This document shows positions 1,131 to 2,715 of a stretch of 37,659 bases of DNA, piece after piece. The translations under genes were made by a program, and so were the position numbers. The notes beneath the pieces were generated by a model that saw only the letters and a program-made list of their open reading frames with translations, ran no database searches and was not told the origin of the DNA. Numbering within the stretch: the first letter of the stretch is position 1; every line of letters begins with the position of its first letter. The stretch is from Endomicrobium sp. Lineage in GTDB: Bacteria; Elusimicrobiota; Endomicrobiia; Endomicrobiales; Endomicrobiaceae. The stretch spans positions 1 through 37,659 of the forward strand of contig JAISEE010000015.1 in NCBI GenBank assembly GCA_031264325.1, given 5' to 3'.

Positions 1131-1205
1131 GGGCCTGTAGCTCAGTTTGGTTAGAGCACTCGACTCATAATCGAATGGTCGTAGGTTCAAGTCCTACCAG
1201 GCCCA
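1131..1205 (+). tRNA. tRNA-Ile (anticodon CAT, lysidine type)
   Basis: A complete cloverleaf: acceptor stem GGGCCTG/CAGGCCC, D stem GCTC/GAGC, anticodon loop CTCATAA, T stem GTAGG/CCTAC, discriminator A. The anticodon arm sequence GACTCATAATCG matches the minor isoleucine tRNA whose C34 is changed to lysidine by TilS to read AUA, rather than a methionine tRNA. The first anticodon-stem pair (C27, A43) is mismatched. CCA is not encoded. AUA is frequent in the genes of this AT-rich genome, so this tRNA should be in heavy use. tilS is not in the window. Confidence 0.93.
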
Positions 1206-1483
1206 TTAATACTGTAAACTAATCTTTATTAATATCCAAATAGCAGTTAAATATTTTGAAACATAAGCTTGTTGTTTTTTGCTTTATTCTGACAAAATAA
1301 ACTAGCGAGTAAAAAAATGGAAAAATAATTTAACAATTATTTTCAGCTTTTGTTTTCTCTTGTCAATATATGTTTTAGGATATGTTTCTAGAAAATTTCA
1401 TATTTTTTATTTATCAAACAAACTCAAGAGCTGAAGGGCGAGTTTTTTCTTTTTTAAATTTGTTATAATCTTTGTGTTACAAA
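1206..1483 (+). other. Gene-free spacer with a weak terminator candidate
   Basis: No reading frame of note. The only signals are a weak stem AAACTC (1420-1425)/GAGTTT (1440-1445) followed by a T-rich run to 1457, which could end the tRNA-Ile transcript, and the promoter-like element at 1461-1469. Confidence 0.4.
1461..1469 (+). promoter_or_regulatory. Extended -10 element for the zinc-ribbon/rnpB unit
   Basis: TGTTATAAT (TATAAT at 1464-1469) has the same extended -10 form seen in front of other units here. No good -35 is visible in the T-rich sequence upstream. Transcription from about 1476 would give a leader of roughly 155 bases that includes the tRNA relic at 1485-1558. Confidence 0.5.
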
Positions 1484-1484
1484 T

Positions 1485-1558
1485 AGTTATAGTTCAATAA
1501 GAGATCACTCGACTCATAATCGAATGGTCGTAGGTTGTTCAAAATCCTTACTATTCAT
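1485..1558 (+). pseudogene. Decayed copy of tRNA-Ile(CAT)
   Basis: Bases 1506-1536 are identical to 1157-1187 of the functional tRNA-Ile, 31 bases covering the anticodon arm, variable loop and first T-stem strand. Flanks still align roughly: TATAGTTCAATAAGAG against TGTAGCTCAGTTTGGTTAGAG on the 5' side, and an expanded T loop followed by CCTTAC against CCTAC on the 3' side. The acceptor stem no longer pairs, so it should not be charged. It is either a duplicated tRNA in decay or a tRNA-like leader element. Confidence 0.8.
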
Positions 1559-1630: not shown

Positions 1631-2347
1631 ATGGATTTAAAGCAAGATTTGGCGTTGTTATTTGAGCTACAAGGCTATGATATAAAAGTTAGCGATATTA
1701 ACAAGCAAATAAGTTTTGCGTCTAGTTTAATCGAACAAAAGAATATAACTTTAGAAGATAAAAAAACTAAATTAAACGAAGAAAAGAAAAAATATATGGA
1801 TTTAGTATTATTGAAAAAAGAAAAAGAATTTTTGCTTGCTGATAGTGAAAAAACCATAGCAAAATATTTTATGGATCTTAATACAATTAAGTCTAATGAT
1901 GCTTATAAAGCTTTACTTTTAAAAATAGAGAAAGTAAAAATTGATAAAAATATTATTGAAGATGAACTTTTGACGTTTATGGAAAAAGTAGATGAAGTAT
2001 CTGCAAAGATTAAATCTGCTGAAAGTGAATTTAAAAAGTTTGAAGAAAATATAAGGAAAGAAATAATAGATATAAAAAATAGTACAAATAAGTTTAAGGG
2101 AGAGTCTATTGCGTTGGAAAATAAAAGAGAAGAACTCAAGTTGAGAGTCAACAAATTTGTTTTGTCTCATTATGAGAGATTAAAAGGAGGACGTGGCGGT
2201 CGCGGGATAGCTATTGTTAACGGTGAAAGTTGCGACTGTTGCGGTATGACTTTGAGAATTCAGCTTGTCATCCAAGTTCTTAAATGTCAAGAACTTGTGT
2301 TTTGTGATAATTGTTCTAGAATATTATTTAAGAGTAACGCTTTATAA
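1631..2347 (+). CDS. C4-type zinc ribbon, coiled-coil protein (DUF164 family)
   Basis: The 238-residue protein starts at an ATG preceded by a very strong ribosome site (GGAGGGGG, 1619-1626). Residues about 10-175 are a long charged coiled coil rich in Lys and Glu. The C-terminus has four cysteines in two pairs, CDCCG and CDNC, forming the zinc ribbon of the DUF164 (CT398-like) family. The biochemical role of this family is not settled; nucleic-acid binding is usually proposed. The gene runs directly into RNase P RNA, with its stop codon inside the P1 stem, so the two are probably co-transcribed. Family assignment is firm, function is not. Confidence 0.85.
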   Translation: MDLKQDLALLFELQGYDIKVSDINKQISFASSLIEQKNITLEDKKTKLNEEKKKYMDLVLLKKEKEFLLADSEKTIAKYFMDLNTIKSNDAYKALLLKIEKVKIDKNIIEDELLTFMEKVDEVSAKIKSAESEFKKFEENIRKEIIDIKNSTNKFKGESIALENKREELKLRVNKFVLSHYERLKGGRGGRGIAIVNGESCDCCGMTLRIQLVIQVLKCQELVFCDNCSRILFKSNAL

Positions 2348-2715
2348 AGACGGATGCGCAACCGCTTTGCAGTCTTCTAGACACACATGCAAAGAGGAAA
2401 GTCCGAACTTTAACCTTTTAAGTATGTATATCCTCCTCTTAATTAAGGTAAACGATAGCAGGTAATTCCTGTCGCTCGTGAGGGTAGAGGTGCGAACAGA
2501 GACGCTTTTCTTAGAAATTAAGATAAGTATCCTTGCAAAAGGATAAGTTTTTACGGAAACGTGAAAGGTGAAACGGCAAAATCTTTATCGGAAAGCAAAG
2601 CTGAAGTATAGCTGCTTGACTGTTAAAAGCGATTTTAACAGCAGAGAAATGGTTGCGCTTTCAAAAGAAAGAGTTTTGAAAGACAGAATTCGGTGTATAA
2701 TTCGTCTTTATAAAG
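2340..2715 (+). ncRNA. rnpB: RNase P RNA (bacterial type A-like)
   Basis: This is the catalytic RNA that removes tRNA 5' leaders. The hallmark GAGGAAAGTCCG lies near 2394, GTGCGAACAGAGACGC near 2491, GCTGCTTGACTG near 2611 and GACAGAATTCGG near 2682. P1 is a 13-bp perfect helix (2340-2352 with 2703-2715) and P2 is GCGCAACC (2356-2363) with GGTTGCGC (2651-2658). Ends were set at the P1 limits; the mature ends may be a few bases shorter. P1 includes the last codon and stop of the upstream gene. No clear terminator follows, only AGATTTTTTT at 2721-2730. Confidence 0.93.

Follow-up and report, generated by a model that had tools for sequence, protein, structure and literature searches.

A probable tRNA-Val(CAC) pseudogene with a short tRNA-Ile-derived patch upstream of rnpB in an Endomicrobium genome

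The window, which is the whole 37,659-nucleotide stretch of Endomicrobium sp. DNA analyzed here, derives from an 802-kb assembly of 34 contigs that is 75% complete. Within it, a functional tRNA gene with a CAT anticodon is followed by a degenerate tRNA-like element, a gene for a C4-type zinc-ribbon protein, and rnpB (Table 1). Two further CAT tRNAs in the assembly are consistent with a set of fMet, Met, and Ile2, from which we infer that the upstream gene encodes tRNA-Ile2 (hereafter tRNA-Ile). Using ARAGORN and the Rfam tRNA model (gathering score 29 bits), the upstream gene scored 72.7 bits, whereas the element scored 25.2 bits, which is under the gathering score, and received no ARAGORN call. 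An earlier note on this DNA had reported that 31 bases of the element are identical to the functional tRNA 349 bases upstream, and this holds exactly: CACTCGACTCATAATCGAATGGTCGTAGGTT occupies 1506-1536 and 1157-1187, an offset of exactly 349. These 31 nt form the longest exact match between the element and tRNA-Ile, and no other exact copy is present in the 802-kb assembly besides tRNA-Ile itself. We also confirmed the extended -10 that had been noticed at 1461-1469 ahead of the element, which reads TGTTATAAT, and the downstream zinc-ribbon gene and rnpB, which match PF02591 and RF00010, respectively.

Table 1. Features of the tRNA-Ile to rnpB interval, in window coordinates
Feature	Position	Strand	Basis
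Functional tRNA, anticodon CAT, inferred tRNA-Ile2; patch donor	1131..1205	+	ARAGORN; Rfam tRNA, 72.7 bits
Donor stretch within tRNA-Ile, identical to patch	1157..1187	+	Sequence match
Probable degraded terminator of tRNA-Ile gene; AACTCTTGAGAAATCaaGGGTTTTTT here in relatives	1420..1449	+	Slot alignment by eye; inference
Extended -10 TGTTATAAT, ancestral promoter of tRNA-Val, zinc ribbon, and rnpB	1461..1469	+	Orthologous TGCTATAAT in relatives
Very probable tRNA-Val(CAC) pseudogene, whole element	1481..1557	+	Slot holds tRNA-Val(CAC) in relatives; flanks as in G026
Decayed tRNA-Val acceptor 5' strand and D arm	1481..1505	+	Alignment with G026 tRNA-Val
Patch from tRNA-Ile: anticodon arm, variable loop, 5' half of T arm	1506..1536	+	31/31 to Ile, 22/31 to Val
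Decayed tRNA-Val T loop, T-stem 3' strand, and acceptor 3' strand; 3-nt insertion	1537..1557	+	Alignment
C4-type zinc-ribbon protein, CT398-like coiled coil, 238 aa	1631..2347	+	Pfam PF02591, 31.3 bits
rnpB, RNase P RNA class A	2346..2713	+	Rfam RF00010, 94.0 bits, E 2.4e-28

The rnpB score of 94 bits is below the Rfam gathering score of 100. The gene abuts the stop codon of the zinc-ribbon gene, a junction that relatives share. In nearly all relatives examined (L038-L069), a conserved GAGGAAAGTCC lies 42-85 nt past that stop codon, which makes it probable that RNase P RNA arises by processing of the zinc-ribbon mRNA or is started inside the open reading frame. On the upstream side, the terminator-like site folds weakly in the window, and about 200 bases (214, at 1207-1420) of unique AT-rich DNA separate it from tRNA-Ile. 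This stretch is missing from the nearest relative, G026, in which the corresponding gap is about 20 bases, and a search for it as a repeat found no second copy within the window's genome.

To place the element, we compared the locus with those of relatives, which were fetched by their zinc-ribbon gene; this gene was present in 31 of the 42 genomes in a search of the genus Endomicrobium/Endomicrobiellum. Ca. Endomicrobiellum (Elusimicrobia) is related to the window genome, and a scan of genome contigs with the zinc-ribbon protein recovered two relatives that carry names, Ca. Endomicrobiellum pyrsonymphae PV1 and Ca. Endomicrobiellum dinenymphae DS12. The named Ca. Endomicrobiellum records are symbionts of termite-gut flagellates. 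Nearly all relatives with intact synteny show the order tRNA-Ile(CAT), tRNA-Val(CAC), zinc ribbon, rnpB, which is usual for the genus, and the arrangement Ile-Val-rnpB extends beyond the genus, to further genera of the family (G066, G067) and to other members of the same taxonomic order (G039, G041). The element lies in the slot of tRNA-Val(CAC), with tRNA-Ile(CAT) on one side and the zinc-ribbon/rnpB unit on the other. In G026, whose zinc-ribbon protein is 76% identical, this slot contains an intact tRNA-Val and reads TTTGCTATAATCCTCCTGTCGC-tRNA-Val-TGCTAAAAATTGCTTATT, compared with TTTGTTATAATCTTTGTGTTAC-element-TGCTAAAAATTGTTTATT in the window. The flanks of the element are continuous with those of the G026 gene, with the promoter before and ATGCTAAAAATTG after, and TGCTAAAAATTG follows the slot in both. 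The promoter is orthologous, as TGCTATAAT, in G026, G009, G024, and G007, and also in the genomes that lack a tRNA in the slot (G030, G016, G060, G004, G019). Two relatives carry insertions between an intact tRNA-Val and the zinc-ribbon gene, of about 1.3 kb (G013:C13) and about 6 kb (G005:C13); each might be a mobile element sitting at the 3' end of the tRNA.

The proper limits of the element, 1481-1557, are in register with the 72-nt tRNA-Val. In alignment with G026, its ends (TAGTTA...ACTA..CATGCTAAAAATTG) are of the Val type, with AAATAGTTA against GGGTAGTTA and ACTATTCATGCTAAAAATTG against ACTACCCATGCTAAAAATTG in tRNA-Val, and differ from the tRNA-Ile ends GGGCCTGTA and CAGGCCCATTAATA. 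The acceptor and D arms had both been described as decayed. This is true of the D arm, but the acceptor retains 6 of 7 pairs (AAATAGT/ACTATTC), which derive from GGGTAGT/ACTACCC of tRNA-Val and not from tRNA-Ile. We also attempted to name the parent gene by comparing each arm with every tRNA of the genome, which gave too weak a signal alone: with context ignored, tRNA-Val ranked second of 39 tRNAs, within 0.2 score units of tRNA-Ala(CGC), and the CAT tRNAs were clearly below both. Because tRNA-Ala(CGC) and tRNA-Val fit the decayed ends about equally well, the assignment to tRNA-Val is based chiefly on position and flanks. The earlier note was right that an unevenly conserved tRNA relic lies in the zinc-ribbon/rnpB leader, but the slot and flanks identify it as tRNA-Val(CAC) rather than as a decaying duplicate of tRNA-Ile. 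We conclude that the element is very probably a pseudogene of tRNA-Val(CAC), patched from tRNA-Ile over a short stretch in a manner resembling gene conversion. It has no tRNA function and probably none of its own.

The patch matches tRNA-Ile at 31 of 31 positions and tRNA-Val at 22 of 31, and at all nine sites where the two tRNAs differ it is of the Ile type (9/9). It sits in tRNA register inside Val-type ends, which indicates that it replaced the matching part of tRNA-Val and was not inserted. The distinguishing sites set the length of the copied tract at about 24-36 bases. For homologous recombination of the RecA type the patch would be short, which counts against the copying scenario. The Val-derived ends have decayed almost entirely through G/C-to-A/T changes and indels, with 13-14 of 24 G/C sites changed or deleted, compared with 0-1 of 18 A/T sites. 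None of the 14 G/C sites in the patch has changed relative to its donor (Fisher p 0.0003-0.0009 against the ends, with hand-read counts and with patch limits set post hoc by the match itself). Under uniform decay, an untouched run of 31 sites has a probability of 0.004 or less, a value that likewise depends on limits chosen after the match was seen. Because such a run is improbable in a chimera that had formed early and then decayed evenly, the order of events appears to be loss of function, decay, and then copying, with the patch probably arriving later than most of the decay. The patch is present in one assembly only, so that purifying selection on it is conceivable, and none of the other genus genomes searched shows it. 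A scan of viral contigs with the patch and its flanks gave no match. A terminator-like hit on the minus strand over the patch was dismissed, as it corresponds to the anticodon hairpin.

Loss of tRNA-Val(CAC) has occurred in parallel in G030, G016, G060, G004, G019, and G031. In the first five, the slot lacks a tRNA while the TTTGCTATAAT promoter and the downstream unit are kept, and a genome search returned only weaker matches to Val(CAC), as strong as those of the other Val tRNA; some of these genomes are complete or near-complete. In G031, tRNA-Ile lies directly 5' of the zinc-ribbon gene. The window's assembly keeps Val(TAC) and Val(GAC), and no second Val(CAC) gene was found in it, although at 75% completeness absence is not proven. 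The UAC anticodon reads GUG by ordinary wobble rules, which makes the CAC species redundant.

The history that best explains these comparisons is as follows. In the reduced, AT-drifting genome of an Endomicrobium symbiont, Val(CAC) would have been dispensable since Val(UAC) can read GUG, and its gene would have decayed, mainly through G/C-to-A/T changes and indels. A short, non-reciprocal copying event from tRNA-Ile into the Val slot would then have overwritten 24-36 bases in register, by gene conversion or by replication template switching between neighboring same-strand tRNA genes. Retention of the promoter would follow from the continuing dependence of the zinc-ribbon protein and RNase P RNA on it, and the relic would now be part of an untranslated leader, its tRNA function gone and probably with no function of its own.

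We weighed this history against others. Downstream duplication of the whole tRNA-Ile gene, with decay of the copy and separate loss of tRNA-Val, would account for the 31-nt identity and for a forced global alignment that favors Ile (25.5) over Val (16.5), a difference driven by the patch. It is very unlikely, because the element coincides with the Val slot and has the promoter and 3' flank of the Val gene, its outer ends TAGTTA and ACTA..CATGCTAAAAATTG are Val-type rather than GGGCCTG and CAGGCCCATTAATA, and a uniformly decaying duplicate would seldom retain the untouched run described above. Even less probable is that the patch arose as an artefact of assembly or amplification in a metagenome-assembled genome. 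The assembly is fragmentary, at 34 contigs, and a 31-nt repeat is near common assembly k-mer lengths, but an internal replacement in register calls for a pair of junctions no more than about 36 bases apart, flanked on either side by unique sequence, whereas an ordinary repeat misjoin makes one junction.

A further possibility is that the tRNA-like element has been retained as a functional leader, acting as a docking or processing site for RNase P, as a decoy, or in feedback on RNase P RNA. Its position ahead of the zinc-ribbon/rnpB unit and its preserved promoter would fit such a role, as would acceptor pairing retained at 6/7 through two double changes and the presence of a true RNase P substrate, tRNA-Val, at the start of this region in relatives. 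However, relatives with an empty slot keep the downstream unit, the patch is absent from all other genomes searched, and the element folds no better than many shuffled sequences (z-score -1.29; 21 of 200 shuffles as good). We rejected compensatory change in the acceptor stem as a sign of function, since simulated decay by GC-to-AT drift alone often gives the same pairing, with at least 6 of 7 pairs in 26% of simulations when Watson-Crick pairs are counted and in 69% with G-U pairs. Feedback control of RNase P RNA, which the earlier note offered as speculation, is left unsupported. That note had named absence of the element from relatives as one observation that would speak against its proposal, and the relatives do lack the tRNA-Ile-like element; with no shared patch and several relatives in which the slot is deleted, conserved RNase P feedback is not supported. 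We therefore regard a functional leader as very improbable, and a role specific to this lineage is still conceivable.

One other locus bears on this question. In G017 (G017:C4:23586-23660, minus strand; L067, L101), a second degenerate tRNA-Val(CAC) slot has an undamaged Val acceptor stem enclosing a scrambled interior, which is a point in favor of a functional leader: all 14 acceptor bases (7 bp) are intact, and 36 of 60 interior bases have changed relative to the intact copy on another contig in the same bin. The contrast between stem and interior has p 3e-5 in an ungapped comparison, and a pattern search found this to be the only such case among 77 genomes of the family. The stem may have been retained for processing within the zinc-ribbon/rnpB leader. 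The G017 bin contains two divergent tRNA-Ile/zinc-ribbon loci, on contigs C1 and C4, and perhaps mixes two genomes; a pair of zinc-ribbon loci occurs in G018 as well. Across the class, well beyond the genus, the zinc-ribbon/RNase P RNA unit has an intact tRNA ahead of it, and together with the G017 stem this leaves a slim possibility that processing of the tRNA is important to the message. The transcript of Endomicrobia RNase P RNA would then start with a tRNA or tRNA-derived stem, RNase P processing would determine where the zinc-ribbon/rnpB message begins or how much of it is produced, and tRNA parts would have been kept for that job, here and on G017 contig 4, after their function in translation was lost; we consider this scheme a long shot. 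The literature searched contained no direct precedent for a tRNA-rnpB operon, which is not evidence of novelty.

The tRNA-Val(CAC) pseudogene shares with known tRNA pseudogenes its loss of function, a score under the tRNA gathering threshold, indels, and broken arms. It is also longer than the functional gene (77 vs 72 nt), as bacterial tRNA pseudogenes reportedly tend to be (PMC9858662). It differs in that the anticodon arm is the best-preserved part and comes from another tRNA family. With tRNA remolding by ectopic gene conversion, which has been discussed for tRNA genes (PMC4981973), it shares the anticodon of one family in the slot of another, recognized by synteny. Remolding in that study is defined through anticodon changes in primates and fruit flies, and alloacceptor remoldings there are mostly recent and fall in pseudogenes (PMC4981973); here, in contrast, a block of about 31 nt was apparently copied into an already decayed gene of a bacterium. 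Relative to the tRNA-Val(CAC)-zinc ribbon-rnpB locus of Endomicrobium (Endomicrobiellum), the promoter, slot, and downstream genes are the same, but the tRNA is dead and chimeric, whereas other genomes have an intact copy, have deleted it, or retain just the acceptor stem (G017 contig 4). The processes are thus already known, namely tRNA pseudogenization and remolding or gene conversion, and the element is a new example of them, essentially an ordinary fossil.

As a clear bacterial case, with an apparent short conversion patch in a decaying gene, it illustrates how synteny can assign to tRNA-Val a relic whose closest match by sequence is tRNA-Ile. It also cautions that uneven conservation in tRNA relics is poor ground for inferring function, and that drift from GC to AT can make a decaying stem look as if it had undergone compensatory base changes. 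For the Endomicrobia, the locus places RNase P RNA behind one of the substrates of its own enzyme, an arrangement that would be testable in cultured Endomicrobium proavitum if the locus there matches.
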